Assembly (NCBI GenBank): GCA_026396875.1
Contig: JAPLVY010000005.1
Coordinates: 180,907 to 213,014 of the forward strand
Length of the DNA stretch: 32,108 nt
DNA from: Candidatus Falkowiibacteriota bacterium
GTDB taxonomy: Bacteria; Patescibacteriota; Patescibacteriia; Patescibacteriales; UBA12465
Direction of reading: 5' to 3'
The stretch's first letter is position 1; each line of letters starts with the position of its first letter. The notes below the pieces were generated by a model. That model had not been told where the DNA came from. It was given only the letters and a program-made list of their open reading frames with translations, and did not search any database. Of the stretch, positions 2,526 to 28,600 are shown one piece after another. A program made the translations under genes and the position numbers.

Positions 2526-4523
2526 ATGAACTCCACCCTTCTTATTTTCGGTTCAGCGATTCTCGCCATTGTTTATGGCTTGGTCACTATCCGCAGTATC
2601 TTTAAGCTCCCTGCTGGAAATGAAAAAATGCAGGAAATCGCTCGCGCGATTCAAGATGGCGCCAAAGCTTTTTTGAATCGTCAGTATCGCACTGTAGCGA
2701 TTGTTGCGGTCGCATTATTTATCATTCTTGGCCCAGTTTTGGGCTGGATGACTGCCGTTGCCTTTCTGGTCGGAGCAATTTTCTCTGCCCTTACTGGTTA
2801 TATCGGCATGCACGTCAGTGTTCGCGCTAATGTGCGAACTACTGAGGCCGCTCGTGGCGGCATGAAAAAGGCTTTGGATGTCGCCGTCAAAGGAGGCAGT
2901 GTGACCGGCATGCTCGTTGTCGGCTTAGCTCTTCTTGGTACTGCCGGCTTCTATTTTTTGACTCACGATTTGCACGCCTTAATCGGCTTCGGTTTTGGTG
3001 GCTCTCTGATTTCCATTTTTGCCCGCTTAGGTGGTGGTATTTATACCAAGGCTGCCGATGTCGGGGCTGATTTGGTTGGTAAGGTTGAAGCTAGTATTCC
3101 AGAAGATGATCCTCGCAATCCAGCAGTAATTGCTGACAATGTTGGTGATAATGTTGGTGACTGTGCTGGTATGGCCGCTGACTTATTTGAAACCTATGCA
3201 GTAACTTCGATTGCGGCGATGGTTCTCGGCTCCTTGATGTTTGCTGATAATGCCAATATTATTATCTTCCCATTGGTTATTGGCGCTCTTTCCATTATCG
3301 CTTCGATTGTTGGTATTTTCTTTATCCGCCTTGGAAAAAGTGGCAATATCATGCGCGCTTTGTATAAAGGATTAATTGCTGCTGGCGTTTTATCAGCGAT
3401 TGCTTTTTATCCTTTAACCAAGATGATGTTTTCTGACCCAGTAATGGCGATGAATGTTTATCTCTCGACCTTGATCGGTTTGGTGGTTACTGGCGCCTTA
3501 GTATTTATTACCGAATATTATACTTCCACCGCTTTCTCTCCAGTAAAGAGTATTGCTGAGGCTAGTAAGACTGGCCATGGAACCAACGTGATTGCTGGTC
3601 TTGCCGTTTCGATGAAATCCACCGCCTGGCCGGTAATTGTTATTTGTTTGGCAATTTTTGGTGCTTATAGTTTGGCTGGTATCTATGGTATTGCTGTCGC
3701 AGCGATGGCCATGCTTTCGATGGCGGGAATTATCGTTACCATCGATGCTTATGGACCAATCACCGACAATGCTGGCGGTATTGCAGAAATGGCTGAACTC
3801 GGCGATGATGTTCGAAACATCACCGACCCCTTAGATGCAGTTGGAAACACCACTAAAGCAGTAACTAAAGGCTATGCTATTGGTTCCGCCGCTTTAGCTG
3901 CTCTCGTTTTGTTTGCTGACTTTACTTTCAAGATCAAGGCCGCCGGTGGCAACGCTGAATTCATGATCAATAACCCTTACGTTTTAATTGGTCTATTCTT
4001 GGGTGGCTTGTTGCCTTATTATTTCGGCGCTTTAGCGATGAGTGCGGTTGGCAAAACCGCTGGTTCTGTCGTTGAAGATGTTCGCGCTCAATTCAAAGAA
4101 AAACCAGGAATCATGAATAATACAGAAAAACCAGATTATGGTCGCACAGTTGACATTGTTACTAAGGCCGCTTTAAAAGCAATGATTTTGCCGGCTTTAA
4201 TTCCAGTAGTCGTACCGATTATCGTTGGTTTTGGTTTCGGTAAAGTCCATGGCGTGGAAGCACTTGGCGGTTTGTTGGTCGGTTCAATTATTACTGGTAT
4301 CTTTGTTGCTGTTTCCATGACTTCCGGTGGTGGTGCTTGGGACAATGCCAAGAAATATATCGAACAAGGCTTCTTTGGTGGTAAAGGTTCCGATGCTCAT
4401 AAGGCAGCAGTTACTGGCGATACCGTTGGTGATCCATACAAAGATACAGCTGGTCCAGCTATTAATCCAATGATTAAAGTTCTAAATATCGTCGCTCTGC
4501 TAATTGTTGGTTTATTGCTCTAG
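2526..4523 (+). CDS. hppA: Membrane-bound proton-pumping pyrophosphatase
   Basis: This integral membrane enzyme hydrolyses pyrophosphate and pumps protons across the membrane. At 665 residues it has the usual length, with about 16 hydrophobic segments. The substrate site is intact: [11 protein letters not shown] (from residue 178), [12 protein letters not shown] (204-215), the late acidic loop [18 protein letters not shown] and [11 protein letters not shown]. The potassium-dependence position reads GNTTKA with Lys about 444; family studies link Lys here to K+-independent proton pumps and Ala to K+-dependent ones. It shares a transcript direction with nusA (24-base gap) and is closed by a strong terminator. 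No Shine-Dalgarno is seen. It would conserve energy from the pyrophosphate made by biosynthesis. Confidence 0.96.
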
Positions 4524-19001: not shown

Positions 19002-19556
19002 ATGAGTAATCGACATTTAGCGCGAACTATTGCAATGCAGACCTTATTTGTCTGGGACTTCAATCATCGCAATAACTCTGATATTGATCGTATCATCAAG
19101 GATAATTTTGCTAATTTTGCTCCCGATTTTAATGATAGTGGCTATGTAAAATATACTATTGATGGTATTTTTGAGCACCTGGAAGAAATCGATAATTATA
19201 TTCGCAAGTATGCCACGGAATGGCCATTGGAGCAGATTACTTATGTTGATCGTAATATTTTGCGTCTCGGCATTTTTGAATTAATCCACGCAGAAAAAAT
19301 TCCGCCAAAAGTCGCCATCAACGAAGCAATTGAAATTGCTAAAGCTTTTGGTAGCGATTCCTCAAGTAAATTCGTCAACGGTGTTTTGGGTTCGATTTTT
19401 AATGATTTGCCAGAAGAATTGCGTAAAGCTGATTTTATTCCGGAAAATGAAGAGGAAAAACCCGCCGAGGAAATCGATGATGCAACTATCACCAAGGAAA
19501 TCACGGAGGAGTTAAAAGAAGAAACCAAAGAAATCGATGAAAGTCCAAAATTCTAA
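19002..19556 (+). CDS. nusB: Transcription antitermination protein NusB
   Basis: With NusE (S10), NusB binds boxA RNA in rRNA leaders and supports rRNA antitermination. The 184-residue protein has the helical fold with ARTIAMQTLFVWDFN at the start, DRNILRLGIFELIH and KVAINEAIEIAKAFG, then SSKFVNGVLGSI. An acidic tail of about 45 residues (from about 140) extends beyond the usual length. It is followed 4 bases later by rnc, placing rRNA transcription and processing genes together, near the 23S gene. Confidence 0.94.
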   Translation: MSNRHLARTIAMQTLFVWDFNHRNNSDIDRIIKDNFANFAPDFNDSGYVKYTIDGIFEHLEEIDNYIRKYATEWPLEQITYVDRNILRLGIFELIHAEKIPPKVAINEAIEIAKAFGSDSSSKFVNGVLGSIFNDLPEELRKADFIPENEEEKPAEEIDDATITKEITEELKEETKEIDESPKF

Positions 19557-19560
19557 AGCT

Positions 19561-20253
19561 ATGGCTGAATTTGAAAAATTACAAAAAAAAATAAATTTCA
19601 CTTTTGAAAAGAAGGACTTATTAAAACAAGCCCTAGTTCATCGTTCCTATTTGAATGAGCATCCAGATTTTCCTTGCGGGCATAACGAGCGTTTAGAATT
19701 CTTAGGTGATGCGGTTTTAGAAATTGTGGTCACCGAATATCTTTATCTCAATTTTCCAGAAACTCCCGAAGGAGATTTGACTAATTGGCGCGCTAGCTTG
19801 GTAAATGCCAAAATGCTACACGTGGTGGCGGAAGAGATTAGTCTTGATGACTACCTGTATTTATCTCGCGGTGAAGCAAAAGACAAAAACAAGAAGGCGC
19901 GCGGCTATATTCTGGCCAATGCCGTCGAGGCTTTGATTGGCGCTATATATTTGGATCAGGGACTTGAGCCGGCGAAGAAATTTATTCTTGGTCGCATTGT
20001 TGTTAAGTTGGCGGACATTTTAAAGAACAAAACCTATTTAGATCCGAAATCTCGTTTTCAGGAGGCCTCTCAAGAATTTCTGGCAGTTACCCCGAGTTAC
20101 CAAATTCTAAGTGAAGAAGGGCCAGACCACGCCAAAACCTTTACAGTTGGTCTTTACTTGGGCGAAGAACTTATTTCGCAGGGTGTCGGTTCATCCAAGC
20201 AGGAGGCACAAATTGATGCTGCTGCCAAAGGTTTAGTTGTTAAAAATTGGTAA
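19561..20253 (+). CDS. rnc: Ribonuclease III
   Basis: RNase III cuts double-stranded RNA, notably the long stems around 16S and 23S precursors. The start is placed at ATG 19561 (MAEFEKLQKK); an earlier in-frame ATG at 19537 lies within nusB. The 230-residue protein has the catalytic signature NERLEFLGDAVLEIVV, a second acidic site (ANAVEALIGAIYLDQG) and a C-terminal dsRNA-binding domain (about 157-230; AKTFTVGLYLGEELISQGVG, then KQEAQIDAAAKGL). All catalytic acids appear present. A 23-bp stem that fits as its substrate flanks the 23S gene at 21747 and 24765. Confidence 0.96.
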   Translation: MAEFEKLQKKINFTFEKKDLLKQALVHRSYLNEHPDFPCGHNERLEFLGDAVLEIVVTEYLYLNFPETPEGDLTNWRASLVNAKMLHVVAEEISLDDYLYLSRGEAKDKNKKARGYILANAVEALIGAIYLDQGLEPAKKFILGRIVVKLADILKNKTYLDPKSRFQEASQEFLAVTPSYQILSEEGPDHAKTFTVGLYLGEELISQGVGSSKQEAQIDAAAKGLVVKNW

Positions 20254-20264
20254 ATTTTATTTAT

Positions 20265-21344
20265 ATGGATTTTACAATCTTATTTAAAATCGCCACTGCC
20301 ACTGGAGCTTCCGATTTACACCTAATTCACGGCTTAAAGCCGATGCTTCGTTTGAGTGGTCAGCTTTTTGATATCGACGAAGTGCTGTCTGGTACTGACA
20401 ATCTCGCCGCCTTTAAGGGGATGTCTTTTTCTGTCCTTGGAGACAAAGATTTAAGTGCTTCCCTGGATCTTTTTCTAAACAAAGAACAGAAGGCTGCGTT
20501 ATTAAAAAATAGAGAATTAGATTGTAGCTTCGGTGTGGATGGCACTCGTTTCCGCATCAACGTTTCTTTTGCCTGCGATCACTTACGAGTGGTGGCGAGA
20601 GTAATTAATAGTCACCAGCCCACTCTGGAAGAAGTTGGTTTTACAGATAGTATTAAAAAGATTCTTGATCAGCGCCAAGGCCTGATTTTACTAGTTGGAC
20701 CGACCGGTTCGGGAAAGTCAACCACTTTGGCGGCGATGATTGATTATCTTAACGAAAATTATCGTTACAATATTATTACTTTTGAGGATCCGATTGAGTT
20801 TATTTTTACCCCTAAAAAAAGTATTATTTCCCAACGTCAATATGGTACTGATTTTCTAAGTTTTCCAGAAGGTCTTTCTCATGTTCTGCGTCAGGACCCA
20901 AACGTCATCATGATTGGTGAGATGCGCGACCTAGAAACCATTGCCTCGGCAATTACTATCGCGGAAACCGGGCATTTAGTATTTGCCACTTTACATACTG
21001 CTAATTCTGCCCAGTCCATTGACCGTATGATTGATATTTTTCCAGCTCATCAACAGAATCAAATCAGATCACAAGTTTCCAATATTTTGAGCGCTGTTAT
21101 TGCTCAGCATTTAATTCCTAAAGTTGATGGCGGAAGAATTGCTGCCAGAGAGATTATGCTCAACAATGCAGCAATCGGTAACATGATTAGAGAGAATAAG
21201 GCCTCTCAAATGAAGAACGTGATTGAGACCAGTGCTGCCGAAGGAATGGTCTGTCTTGATCATGACCTGAAGAGGCTTTATAGCGAAGGATTAATCACCA
21301 AGGAAACAGCAATGGAGTATTTGGAAAATAATAAGGAAATTTAG
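20265..21344 (+). CDS. pilT: PilT-type retraction ATPase
   Basis: PilT family ATPases drive retraction of type IV pili. The start is ATG 20265 (MDFTILFKIATATGASDLHL), 11 bases after rnc; the frame opens earlier only through a TTG inside rnc. The 360-residue protein has the SDLHL start, Walker A GPTGSGKSTT (about 141-150), the Asp box FEDPIEF, Walker B NVIMIGEMRDLE and the His box GHLVFATLHT. The C-terminal part keeps IGNMIRENKASQM, similar to the PilT IRE segment, which favours retraction over GspE/PilB-type assembly ATPases. No other pilus gene is nearby, except the unrelated pilin-like gene at 711. Confidence 0.92.
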   Translation: MDFTILFKIATATGASDLHLIHGLKPMLRLSGQLFDIDEVLSGTDNLAAFKGMSFSVLGDKDLSASLDLFLNKEQKAALLKNRELDCSFGVDGTRFRINVSFACDHLRVVARVINSHQPTLEEVGFTDSIKKILDQRQGLILLVGPTGSGKSTTLAAMIDYLNENYRYNIITFEDPIEFIFTPKKSIISQRQYGTDFLSFPEGLSHVLRQDPNVIMIGEMRDLETIASAITIAETGHLVFATLHTANSAQSIDRMIDIFPAHQQNQIRSQVSNILSAVIAQHLIPKVDGGRIAAREIMLNNAAIGNMIRENKASQMKNVIETSAAEGMVCLDHDLKRLYSEGLITKETAMEYLENNKEI

Positions 21345-21370: not shown

Positions 21371-21398
21371 TTGACATTATTTTTTTATCAGCTATAAT
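21371..21398 (+). promoter_or_regulatory. Consensus promoter of the 23S-5S transcript
   Basis: TTGACA at 21371-21376, 16 bases, TATAAT at 21393-21398: both hexamers match consensus exactly, the best promoter in the window, as expected for rRNA. The predicted start is near 21405, leaving a leader of about 365 bases. Confidence 0.8.
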
Positions 21399-21429
21399 TA
21401 AAACAGTTTTAAAAAACAAGAGATACGAT

Positions 21430-21520
21430 ATGCGTAATCAAATTTTTCATATCCACTTAAAGCGGTGACTACACAATGCCTTTTTCACTTGTGTTGTAGA
21501 CCGCCTCGGCGGTTTTTTTA
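21430..21520 (+). promoter_or_regulatory. Attenuator-like element with short frame in the 23S leader
   Basis: A hairpin ACCGC-CTCG-GCGGT (21500-21513) followed by seven Ts is a terminator. Its 5' half can pair instead with GCGGT (21462-21466), and TGTAG (21495-21499) with CTACA (21469-21473), making an alternative stem that would undo the terminator. A 12-codon frame, MRNQIFHIHLKR, runs from ATG 21430 to TGA 21466-21468, ending in the first arm of that alternative stem, as in leader-peptide attenuators. A second frame, MPFSLVL, lies at 21476-21499. The structure is plain in the sequence; the regulatory reading is inference. Confidence 0.55.
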
Positions 21521-21746
21521 GTCCCTGACTGAAGAATTTGAAAAAAGATTGAAGCACTCATTTCGTTCATCGCCTAGCGGTGTGCGGAACCGGTAAGTCA
21601 ATCAGATTATAGACCGTGTGCGACCATTAAAATCAGAATAAAAACTTCATTATGATTTTTTGCAATTTCAATAATGAAGCAGACTGAAATTAGCAGCGTC
21701 TAATTTTCAGTCATAGATCAAGATCAAAAACTTTTCGAGAAAGTTT
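21521..21746 (+). other. Structured 23S leader without genes
   Basis: No 16S rRNA, tRNA or protein frame is present. Visible stems: 21645-21653 with 21671-21679 (9 bp, loop 17); 21682-21692 with 21701-21712 (11-12 bp, one bulge); 21727-21733 with 21739-21745 (7 bp). They probably shape processing of the 23S precursor. Confidence 0.5.
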
Positions 21747-21769
21747 AAAAACAAAAGTGTGAGGAAATC
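21747..21769 (+). repeat. 23S processing stem, 5' arm
   Basis: These 23 bases are perfectly complementary to 24765-24787. A long duplex closing the 23S ends is the classic RNase III substrate. Confidence 0.88.
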
Positions 21770-24764
<2,995 letters not shown>

Positions 24765-24787
24765 GATTTCCTCACACTTTTGTTTTT
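24765..24787 (+). repeat. 23S processing stem, 3' arm
   Basis: Perfect 23-base complement of 21747-21769; see that entry. Confidence 0.88.
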
Positions 24788-24863: not shown

Positions 24864-24981
24864 ATTTTGGTGGTTGAAGCGAAGGGGACACACCTGATTC
24901 CATCCCGAACTCAGCAGTTAAGCCCTTCAGCGCCGAAAATACTTGGGCCTGAGCCCTGGGAAGATAGGTCGCCGCCAGAAT
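24864..24981 (+). rRNA. rrf: 5S ribosomal RNA
   Basis: The 5' strand (24864-24874) pairs with the 3' strand (24971-24981) as helix I. The interior has the conserved CCATCCCGAACTCAGCAGTTAAGC loop region (about 24900-24924) and CGCCGAAAATACTTGG. About 118 bases, 75 bases after the 23S processing stem. Confidence 0.92.
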
Positions 24982-25147: not shown

Positions 25148-28100
25148 ATGAAAAATTTATTCTCAAGATTTCATCATAAATACTTATTCGTTCCTTTTTT
25201 AATTGGAGCGTTTTTTATTATTGTTCCAAGGGCCTCGGCGGCGCTGATTAACGCTGACGGCGTAATCGGTCATATCGATATTAACAATAATACTAATTAT
25301 ACCGAAAAAGGACCGAATAATACGACAACCACTAACGGCTTTAATTACCCAATGGATAGTGGCGCCGTAGATACGGTCAATCACCGATTATTTACCATTG
25401 ACTCCTATAACCACCGTATTTTGGTGTTTGCGCTTGATAGCAACGATAACATTGTTTCTCAAACTCCGATTAATGTCTTGGGTCAAAATAATCTTGATTA
25501 TTTGAAGGCTGGGACTAGTAGGTCGGCTTTAAATTATCCCTGGGGTTTGGCTTATGATAGTGTTAATCGTAGACTTTTTGTTGCCGATTCTCAAAATAAT
25601 CGAGTTTTAATTTTTAATGTTGACCCCGGATATATCACCAACAACGAAAACGCTGACTACGTGCTTGGTCAAAGCAACTTTACCAATTCTGGTAGTGGTG
25701 CCACTCAAAGCACAATGTATTTTCCGATGGGCCTCGACTATGATTCGGCAACTAATCGTCTTTTTGTGGCCGATACCTATAATAGTCGTGTATTGGTTTT
25801 TGATGTTAATCCGGCCATAGTTACTAGCGGAGAAAATGCCACTAGCGTGATTGGTCAAGCTAATTTTACTACTGTTACTTTTGGTACAGCAGCCAATAAG
25901 CTCTATTATCCGGCCGACGCTACTTATGATACCAATAACAATCGTTTGTTCGTTACTGATTGGTATAATAATCGGGTTATGGTTTTTAATGCCGCCTCAG
26001 GAACTTTGCCAGTAAATAATGCCAGTGCAGTAAATGTACTAGGTCAGACGCTTTTTACTACTAGAGTTGCCAATGTCACTCAAACTTCTTTTTGGGGGCC
26101 AAAAAATTCAACTTACGACATTCTAAGTAACCGTCTTTTTGTCACTGATAATTCTAACAATCGTTTAATGGTTTTTGATGTTGCCACTTCAACAATTGTG
26201 AACAATAAGGCGGCCTCCAATGTTTTAGGGCAGACGCTATTTACTACTGGAGTAGTAAGCACCACTCAGAATGGGTTAAACAGTCCGGCGGGAGCAATAT
26301 TTGATCCGACAAATAAGCATCTATTTGTGGCGGATTGGTATAATAATCGCATCATGGTTTTTAATGCGGCCACCTCATCAATCGCAAACGGTGCCAATGC
26401 CATTGATTTGCTCGGGCAAACAAATACTGATGGAAGCAAAAATTACACAACCAAGCTTTTCGATAACTCACCGACTAATGCCTCTGGTTTTAATAATCTT
26501 CCCAGCGCTACTATCGATACAGTGAATCATCGTCTCTTTGTGGCCGATAAATTTAATTATCGAGTTTTAGTTTATCCTTTAAGCAGTAGTAATAAGATGA
26601 CGACTACTACTCCGAATTATGTTTTGGGTCAGTCAAATTTTACTAGTGGAATTGGGCCGAGCCTGAGTAGAAATAGTTTTGGTGGCAGTGTTTTTAATCT
26701 TTTGTACGACTCAAATAATAATCGTTTATTTTTGGCCGATGGGAATAATAACCGAGTTCTGATTTTTGATGTTGCCCCGGGAACAATCAGCAGTAACATG
26801 AATGCCAGTTTTGTTCTTGGCCAATCCGGTTTTACCACCAAAGTCTCAGCGGCCACACAATCGGGAATGTATGCCCCGGATGATATGGCTTATGATAGCA
26901 AAACTAATCGACTCTTTGTGGCTGATGCCTGGAATAATCGCGTTTTGGTTTTCAATGTTACTCCAGGAAGTGTTAGCAACGGCATGAATGCTGTTAATGT
27001 TTTGGGCCAGAACAATTTTGCCAGTAGCAGTGCAGCTACTTCAATCAATGGGATGTATATCCCTACCGGCCTGGCTTATGATTCAGCGAATGACCGCTTG
27101 ATTGTTGATGATAGTTTTAATAATAGAATTTTATTCTTTAATGCCGCCACTTCAACCATTGTTAATGGTTCAAATTCTCTAAATGTTATTGGTCAAAGTA
27201 ACTTTACTTCTAACATCGCGGCTAGTACTATCAATGGATTGAATAACCCAGACGATATCATTGGTTACGATTCAGCTACTGGAAGATTATTTATTGATGA
27301 CGACTCAAATAACCGAGTAATGATTTTTGATGTCTCCACATCCACCATTGCTAACGGTAAGAATGCTCAGAACGTAATCGGCCAAAGTAATTTTACGGAT
27401 AATTCACTGAGTGGGTCACAAAGTACCTTCGGCGATCCTAATGGCACCGCCACTTTTGATCCAGTAAACAACGTGATGTTTGTGGCCGATAAGCACAACA
27501 ATCGCATGCTTCAGTTTTCCATGATCAAAATAAATAACGCATCTCTGGCCAATGGGAATGTAAGCAGGCCATATTCTCAGACAATCAGTACTTCTTTTTC
27601 TCAGGGTTCTCAGAGCTTCCAGTTGGTGAGTGGTGTACTGCCAGCAGGCTTATCCCTTAGCACTTCAACTGGTATTATTTCTGGTACCCCAACTTCTGTG
27701 GCTACCAGTACTTTTACTATTGAAGCTGATGACAATTTCAATACTGGTCAATTATTTGATCGCGCCGTTTACACCATGAATATTGGGCCAGCCACTCCGC
27801 CGCTGCCACCAACCAGCCTCCTGGTTTCCAATCTGTCCACTTCCACTCTCACTTTGACCTGGACTGATAACAGTGATAATGAAGATGGTTTCTTGGTGAG
27901 AAAATCTTTGGACGGAAATACTTTTACCGATCTTGCCACCACCAGTCCAAACATTAATACCTTGCCAGTTAACGGTCTGTCTCCCTACACTCATTATTAT
28001 TTTGAAGTCGCTAGTTACAACACTAACAGTACTTCCAGCTTTGCCTTCTCCATGAAAGAAACAACTGTCGCTCTGTCTAGCACTGGCGGGATGCTCATCA

Positions 28101-28600
28101 CCAAGCCCATACCGCCAACAGGAGGCTATAAACTGATGATCAATGATGGTCAGGGAAAAACCGATAAACAAAATGTGAGGTTAAAATTCGTGGTCGGTAA
28201 CGATATTAATAGGATGACGGTTTTTAATAATCCGGAGTCGAAAAATTTGAACATCATCAAATATCAAGAAGAAATAAGCTGGGATATTGGTTCGCAAATT
28301 GGAAATCATATGGTTTGTGCCAAATTCTTTAATCAGTTTGGTCTTTATTTGAACGTAGTTTGTTCCGCAATTACTTATACCCCGCCGGCGAAGAGAGGGG
28401 TGGCCGCTAAAGCTCCAGAAAAATGTATCGTGTACAAGGTTAAGAAGGGTGACAGCTTGCCGGCCATCGCTCTCAAGACTTTGGGCGGTAAATATAAGCA
28501 GAAGTCGATTGTCGATCAAAATAGCAAAAAATACCCAACCCTCAAGAAAGGAAAATTAGGGGTTAATTGGCAGTTAAATATCTGCCAAACCAGCAAATAA
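25148..28600 (+). CDS. Large secreted NHL-repeat protein with Ig-like, FN3 and LysM-like domains
   Basis: This is a 1150-residue secreted protein. The signal peptide spans about residues 1-31 (ends ASA). Residues about 38-790 hold twelve blades, each with VLGQ-x-N-F-T near its start and RLFVADxxNNRVLVF near its end, the NHL beta-propeller pattern. Blades 1 and 7 are a distinct longer type (DTVNHRLF, then an extra loop), so the array reads as two sets of six, two propellers made by duplication. Next come a putative Ig domain (about 795-878; LPAGLSLSTSTGIISGTP), an FN3 domain (about 881-975; LTLTWTDNSDNEDGF), a further beta-sandwich-like stretch (about 990-1085) and a LysM-like end (about 1093-1150; YKVKKGDSLPAIALKTLGG). 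It probably binds peptidoglycan by its tail and displays the propellers for adhesion or ligand binding. Confidence 0.88.
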   Translation: MKNLFSRFHHKYLFVPFLIGAFFIIVPRASAALINADGVIGHIDINNNTNYTEKGPNNTTTTNGFNYPMDSGAVDTVNHRLFTIDSYNHRILVFALDSNDNIVSQTPINVLGQNNLDYLKAGTSRSALNYPWGLAYDSVNRRLFVADSQNNRVLIFNVDPGYITNNENADYVLGQSNFTNSGSGATQSTMYFPMGLDYDSATNRLFVADTYNSRVLVFDVNPAIVTSGENATSVIGQANFTTVTFGTAANKLYYPADATYDTNNNRLFVTDWYNNRVMVFNAASGTLPVNNASAVNVLGQTLFTTRVANVTQTSFWGPKNSTYDILSNRLFVTDNSNNRLMVFDVATSTIVNNKAASNVLGQTLFTTGVVSTTQNGLNSPAGAIFDPTNKHLFVADWYNNRIMVFNAATSSIANGANAIDLLGQTNTDGSKNYTTKLFDNSPTNASGFNNLPSATIDTVNHRLFVADKFNYRVLVYPLSSSNKMTTTTPNYVLGQSNFTSGIGPSLSRNSFGGSVFNLLYDSNNNRLFLADGNNNRVLIFDVAPGTISSNMNASFVLGQSGFTTKVSAATQSGMYAPDDMAYDSKTNRLFVADAWNNRVLVFNVTPGSVSNGMNAVNVLGQNNFASSSAATSINGMYIPTGLAYDSANDRLIVDDSFNNRILFFNAATSTIVNGSNSLNVIGQSNFTSNIAASTINGLNNPDDIIGYDSATGRLFIDDDSNNRVMIFDVSTSTIANGKNAQNVIGQSNFTDNSLSGSQSTFGDPNGTATFDPVNNVMFVADKHNNRMLQFSMIKINNASLANGNVSRPYSQTISTSFSQGSQSFQLVSGVLPAGLSLSTSTGIISGTPTSVATSTFTIEADDNFNTGQLFDRAVYTMNIGPATPPLPPTSLLVSNLSTSTLTLTWTDNSDNEDGFLVRKSLDGNTFTDLATTSPNINTLPVNGLSPYTHYYFEVASYNTNSTSSFAFSMKETTVALSSTGGMLITKPIPPTGGYKLMINDGQGKTDKQNVRLKFVVGNDINRMTVFNNPESKNLNIIKYQEEISWDIGSQIGNHMVCAKFFNQFGLYLNVVCSAITYTPPAKRGVAAKAPEKCIVYKVKKGDSLPAIALKTLGGKYKQKSIVDQNSKKYPTLKKGKLGVNWQLNICQTSK

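Follow-up and report, generated by a model that had tools for sequence, protein, structure and literature searches.

The 23S rRNA gene and its leader

The window analysed here (the whole stretch of 32,108 nucleotides, G000:C8:180907-213014) comes from a 767 kb genome in 10 contigs, which is that of a Falkowbacteria-like Patescibacterium; when the promoter motif described below was scanned across named genomes, the matches were nearly all Candidatus Falkowbacteria, Parcubacteria and Patescibacteria records. On the forward strand, the window carries a 23S rRNA gene at 21762-24774 (Rfam RF02541, 2499.8 bits) and a 5S rRNA gene at 24866-24980 (Rfam RF00001), the latter presumably transcribed jointly with the former. 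Located at C8:52962 of the same contig, the 16S gene is approximately 148 kb from the 23S gene, and the two are thus unlinked. Immediately 5' of the 23S gene, 19002-21344 holds the genes for NusB, RNase III and a PilT-like ATPase, and the 23S gene is thus adjoined by genes for an rRNA antitermination factor and an rRNA-processing enzyme. A NusA gene is found at 1179-2501. Just past the rRNA genes, positions 25148-28600 code for a 1150-amino-acid protein, probably a surface protein, in which NHL repeats are combined with fn3 and a putative Ig domain.

The 23S leader opens with a sigma-70 promoter matching the consensus at 12 of 12 positions (TTGACA-16-TATAAT, 21371-21398, forward strand, as are all leader features), the sole strong promoter 5' of the gene. 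A CAGTTTT motif that is near-invariant in the family alignment follows at 21404-21410, where the transcription start is predicted. Next comes an upstream open reading frame (uORF) of 12 codons at 21430-21468 (MRNQIFHIHLKR), the TGA stop codon of which falls within the 5' arm of a putative antiterminator. This arm (21462-21476) comprises GCGGT at 21462-21466 and ACACAA at 21471-21476, and the 3' arm (21489-21504) comprises TTGTGT at 21489-21494 and ACCGC at 21500-21504. An intrinsic terminator occupies 21498-21519, with a stem at 21498-21515, a CTCG loop and seven Ts at 21513-21519. Since ACCGC (21500-21504) is common to the 3' arm and to the 5' strand of the terminator, antiterminator and terminator are mutually exclusive. 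The rest of the leader, 21520-21761, is without a strong promoter. An earlier, sequence-only reading of the locus had reported a 12-codon frame, a stem and a GC hairpin with seven Ts, in this order between promoter and 23S gene, and had taken the shared ACCGC to mean that stem and terminator exclude each other; each element is where that reading placed it, and the exclusion holds.

The uORF ATG has no conspicuous Shine-Dalgarno sequence ahead of it, and other strong promoters in the same genome likewise lead to ATGs lacking one. The leader has no match among Rfam leader and riboswitch covariance models, even at permissive E-values. Taken by itself, the fold of the window sequence is unexceptional (z -1.1 and -1.2, with 28 of 200 shuffles as good), and the case therefore rests on relatives.

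Distribution among relatives and specificity to 23S

The 5' end of the 23S gene could be located in 34 of 39 genomes of the family. In each of the first 30 family leaders inspected, a perfect promoter leads into CAGTTT or a close variant of it, which is followed by a frame starting with ATG, an arm containing GCGG or GCGA, the arm complementary to it and a GC-rich terminator that carries 6-7 Ts. A strong promoter plus terminator 5' of 23S is present in 32/32 family genomes, 40/43 other genomes of the order and 38/58 of the class sample. The promoter is a 12/12 match in 32/32 family and 39/41 order leaders, and an equivalent terminator, mostly 80-120 nt from the -10 box, lies past it in 32/32 and 41/43, respectively. 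Across the order, class and phylum samples the anatomy of the leader is unchanged and its sequence changed.

A recognisable version is lacking in two genomes of the order (G042 and G078), about one third of the class sample and most members of other classes, so the attenuator that we propose below would not be obligatory for 23S regulation. Linkage of 16S and 23S genes does not account for its absence: a 16S end lies within about 600 nt in only one of 49 such leaders.

When 109 order genomes were searched for the pattern of arms plus terminator, 42 matches turned up in 40 of them, with about six of the matches lying elsewhere than at 23S; a reversed control pattern gave four matches. Among the 18 perfect promoters of the window genome, only that of the 23S gene is followed by an attenuator-like hairpin, and no further copies were found elsewhere in the genomes above the control level. 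The device is therefore specific to 23S. A separate observation concerns Parcubacteria group bacterium CG2_30_45_37 (L064), where a similar promoter, CAGTTTT and, shortly 3', a GC terminator occur at 4069-4107 on the minus strand, with no 23S gene detected in the stretch examined; this may be a divergent or relocated attenuator, or chance.

The two pairings are maintained as sequences diverge

Compared with shuffled sequences, the antiterminator region is more stable in the family (mean z -4.6), the order (-4.0) and the class (-2.3, from a sample in which, as in that of the phylum, the arm detector is noisier). RNAalifold applied to a whole-leader alignment recovered the terminator alone, since the arms are misaligned and the antiterminator competes; we therefore used swapped-arm folding and anchored pair counting in its place. 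Arms swapped between genomes pair much worse than native ones (p = 4e-10, 2e-9 and 3e-7). When 65 arms from family and order are aligned without gaps, 96 cells show compensatory double changes; shuffles give 52 +/- 5, and no more than 59 remain when the partner is slid by 1-3 columns.

Individual lineages carry helices of their own, as in TGAAACCG/CGGTTTCA (G052), TTTGATAACA/TGTTATCAAA (G103), AAAATAAT/ATTATTTT (G003) and AAGAACAC/GTGTGCTT (G007). The stem of the sister genome G001, 92% identical, has changed from CTACACAA to TAACACAA with pairing still possible, and G153 and G086, whose terminator core has become GTCGC/GCGAC, keep a 5' arm that can pair. Arm and loop sequences vary between genera, and only a GCGG/CCGC core is conserved. 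No protector (1:2) hairpin is evident in the window; some relatives have a small hairpin 5' of the ATG.

The reading frame is conserved and the peptide is not

To count uORFs, promoters (at least 11/12) and terminators were picked blind to open reading frames, and a uORF was required to have 9-16 codons and to end 15-55 nt before the terminator. Among leaders with promoter and terminator, 32/32 from the family, 40/40 from the order, 36/38 from the class and 8/11 from other classes have such a uORF, where dinucleotide shuffles predict 4.2, 5.3, 5.0 (about 13% for family, order and class) and 1.0; the genomes are related and mostly metagenome-assembled, so these are not independent trials, and the order set covers 15 or more families in addition to that of the window. 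The detector used for length, distance and frame statistics favoured open reading frames by a bonus, and the counts just given were redone without it. By those statistics, uORFs in relatives are mostly 12-14 codons long (mode 13) and mostly stop 24-31 nt (about 27 nt) before the terminator, and the distance from -10 box to ATG is variable (11-128 nt). Frame 0 is open in every leader, with +1 and +2 open in 12 and 1 (n=32), 7 and 6 (n=41) and 11 and 18 (n=40).

The stop codon falls within the 5' arm even though the frame through the arm differs, giving ends such as KR-stop, KRL-stop, KRF-stop, SG-stop and AVG-stop. Mostly it is the arm itself that supplies the stop: AGCGGTTAA reads S-G-stop, and in the original family the stop comes from AAGCGGTTATAA (K-R-L-stop) or AAGCGATTCTAA (K-R-F-stop). 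A single base close to the frame's end distinguishes the sister species G006 and G019, and the changed frame still stops a few bases on, in the arm region, so that the peptide is altered and the position of the stop has barely moved.

Typical peptides are MKIISSFIKFTSG, MTSELKFKTKSG and MINQKNNFILIGG in the order, and MKPKNLKLKIPSG and MVKQALTFKFPSG are examples from the class. Across genera, no residues or codons of the uORF are conserved beyond those dictated by the arm. Differences between uORFs are 15 synonymous to 49 nonsynonymous, that is, 23% against an expected 22%, a neutral ratio which rules out a functional leader peptide. A fixed length and end point combined with a neutral peptide mean that a translatable frame is conserved and its product is not; judged from these sequences, it is the act of translation that is kept. 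The sequence-only reading had asked whether frame and pairing are conserved in relatives, and both are.

A proposed translation-coupled attenuator of 23S rRNA synthesis

In our interpretation, the element attenuates transcription of the 23S(-5S) rRNA unit in a translation-coupled manner, and we put the probability of this at roughly 0.8. The conserved frame and pairing in relatives support the translation-dependent attenuation that had been suggested from the window alone. The interpretation starts from what is observed, namely anatomy, conservation, covariation, geometry and the absence of another strong promoter; from these we infer translation of the uORF, the direction of masking, for which geometry is the sole guide, and ribosome availability as the signal.

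Polymerase would start at the strong promoter and transcribe the uORF of 12-13 codons. If no ribosome is present at the uORF end, the 5' arm would pair with the 3' arm, ACCGC would be sequestered, the terminator prevented and 23S rRNA made. The antiterminator is made first and is the more stable structure (approximately -16 kcal/mol versus approximately -10 kcal/mol for the terminator, in family and order), and should consequently win when no ribosome intervenes. When a ribosome has reached the stop codon and holds it in the A site, its footprint covers the 5' arm, which in relatives starts about 4-8 nt ahead of the stop codon and runs about 10 nt beyond it. Such a ribosome would thus mask the 5' arm and free ACCGC to pair with GCGGT; the terminator would form, and 23S synthesis would be aborted after about 115 nt. 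With the antiterminator as default and the ribosome as the agent that frees ACCGC, translation should lower 23S synthesis. The output would then be inverse to uORF translation, off when active 70S ribosomes are plentiful and on when ribosomes are short or inhibited. Given the lack of control codons and the neutrality of the peptides, the signal would be ribosome availability rather than one specific aminoacyl-tRNA. We also considered whether lack of a ppGpp synthetase might be a reason for the extra control, but a RelA/SpoT synthetase was found in 92 of the 109 order genomes. The attenuator would therefore act beside stringent control, not instead of it.

The same attenuator might instead sense stalling of ribosomes within the uORF, as a result of amino acid shortage, antibiotics or other translation stress, and not ribosome abundance; a stall 5' of the arm would allow readthrough, like in trp or antibiotic-inducible leaders. 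The layout, in which the uORF end masks region 2 and the choice is then between 2:3 and 3:4, is indeed that of stalling-type attenuators, and basic residues are frequent (K plus R make up about 23% of uORF residues). However, a stalling sensor sits poorly with peptides that evolve neutrally and have no codon or residue in common across genera other than those the arm imposes, and making more rRNA upon starvation would oppose the stringent response, for which most genomes of the order carry the synthetase. We regard stalling as an unlikely signal.

Transcription of 23S must pass through the terminator

Between terminator and 23S gene, no promoter of at least 10/12 exists in any of 32 family leaders. 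Past the terminator, some order and class leaders do have 10/12 matches, none as strong as the upstream promoter; certain of these matches overlap boxA-like TTGACA. With no strong promoter in between, transcription of 23S must read through the terminator. This bears on a second possibility, one that the sequence-only reading had raised as a short separate RNA ending near 21520, namely that promoter and terminator delimit an RNA in its own right, about 115 nt long (either a small RNA or the mRNA of a small protein), and that 23S is transcribed from elsewhere. The unit is compact and bracketed by promoter and terminator, as such an RNA would be, but it fits poorly with the missing second promoter throughout the family. 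Furthermore, RNA sequence and peptide are both unconserved, Rfam offers no match, and the antiterminator would be left purposeless; we consider an independent RNA improbable.

Equally improbable in our estimation is an attenuator governed by a bound protein or RNA, such as a ribosomal protein or a Nus factor on the hairpins, with the open reading frame incidental. Attenuators controlled by ribosomal proteins are described in other bacteria in the part of PMC4538822 that deals with them, and the genes for NusB and NusA are within the same window. An incidental frame would not be expected to be near-universal and fixed in length and stop position, however, and with arms and loops differing between genera there is no conserved binding site besides the GCGG/CCGC core. 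The sequence-only reading had also allowed for the remnant leader of a lost gene. Attenuators normally precede protein genes, and such a remnant would have stayed near 23S by chance, but this is scarcely credible for a device whose uORF, arms and terminator are intact across the whole order and which is kept at 23S in at least 16 families of that order and into other classes, with the uORF counts given above.

We therefore retain translation-coupled attenuation as the preferred reading, and note where it stands in relation to boxA, where other bacteria load the complex that antiterminates rRNA transcription. Among family and order leaders, boxA-like sites lie after the terminator in 55 and before it in none, and the window itself yielded no confident boxA; the arrangement of an rrn boxA/nut antitermination leader, with boxA 5' of the terminator, is thus not the one found. 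The boxA-like sites 3' of the attenuator in many relatives have the form CTTTAACAAT/CTTTGACAAT. Their position in the sequence suggests that an antitermination complex would load only once the attenuation decision is past.

Relationship to known regulatory systems

It has long been asked how rRNA synthesis is adjusted to the demand for ribosomes; in model bacteria the answer is mostly promoter control, and feedback regulation of rRNA synthesis by ribosomes is a classical hypothesis for E. coli. The present proposal shares with it the repression of rRNA synthesis by ribosomes; E. coli feedback is, however, attributed to ppGpp/NTP control of promoters, whereas we propose a direct cis-acting attenuator.

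The closest parallel is ribosome-mediated transcription attenuation of the trp/his type, as set out for E. coli trpL in the relevant part of PMC10953045. Both have a short leader ORF and an exclusive choice between antiterminator and intrinsic terminator, which ribosome position at the ORF end is expected to decide. Compared with that account, the window element differs in controlling an rRNA gene and not amino acid enzymes, in having no control codons, in showing no evident 1:2 protector hairpin, in placing the stop codon inside the antiterminator arm, and in an expected default of readthrough without translation. A promoter-proximal terminator, a conserved short leader ORF and an exclusive antiterminator within ribosome reach, the marks of a ribosome-mediated attenuator, are all found; the control codons of the amino acid (trp/his) subtype are not, so the element is better described as a variant of ribosome-mediated attenuation applied to rRNA.

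The E. coli rrn leader, with its nut/boxA antitermination and the tL pause/attenuation site (PMC3639268, citing Kingston and Chamberlin 1981), likewise has a promoter-proximal pause or termination signal with boxA nearby. In that account's treatment of the leader, tL is described as 3' of nut-like sequences and no leader ORF is mentioned, whereas here the terminator is 5' of boxA and coupled to a uORF. Antibiotic-sensing uORFs, such as those of E. coli toiL-topAI (PMC12121999) and the B. subtilis vmlR leader (PMC9226507), also report the state of translation so as to steer downstream expression; as characterised in the portions of those papers devoted to them, and unlike the window element, they target protein genes and act via stalled ribosomes. 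Finally, L10(L12)4 acts on B. subtilis rplJL through a leader terminator and antiterminator to give feedback on ribosome components (PMC4538822), but in that paper's description the sensor is a ribosomal protein and the target an mRNA, while here the sensor would be translation and the target is an rRNA.

The sequence-only reading held that translation-dependent attenuation of an rRNA gene would be new. In the literature covered here, open-access full text, protein genes attenuated via leader peptides and rrn antitermination in E. coli are described, and no rRNA gene with a translated attenuator was found. Such an attenuator would serve as a ribosome counter that is direct and encoded in cis, and it would be shared by much of Patescibacteria, a major bacterial group whose physiology has seen very little experimental work. 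Ribosome feedback could then be tested with simple reporters, and 23S transcription is predicted to rise under translation inhibitors in organisms that bear the attenuator.

Balance between subunits and the 16S leader

A broader proposition, towards which we lean by a narrow margin, is that Patescibacteria control large-subunit rRNA via direct, ligand-free feedback, in which the nascent 23S transcript would test for working 70S ribosomes through its 13-codon uORF and be aborted if they are present. The same device was searched for in 16S leaders, which have no consistent uORF. If the proposition is true, the supply of 50S relative to 30S subunits would also be balanced, given that the 16S gene is unlinked and its leader is without such a uORF, and this suggests a reason why unlinked 16S and 23S genes stay balanced.

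The 16S leader has features of its own. Approximately 260 nt 5' of the 16S gene at 52962 (locus L149), and in relatives (L150-L178), there is a conserved AU-rich hairpin with a run of seven Ts, AAACAAGATA..TATCTCTGTTTTTTT, soon after the promoter. In many relatives an upstream AAAACAGA could compete for the 3' arm of this hairpin, which is possibly a second, different rRNA attenuator.
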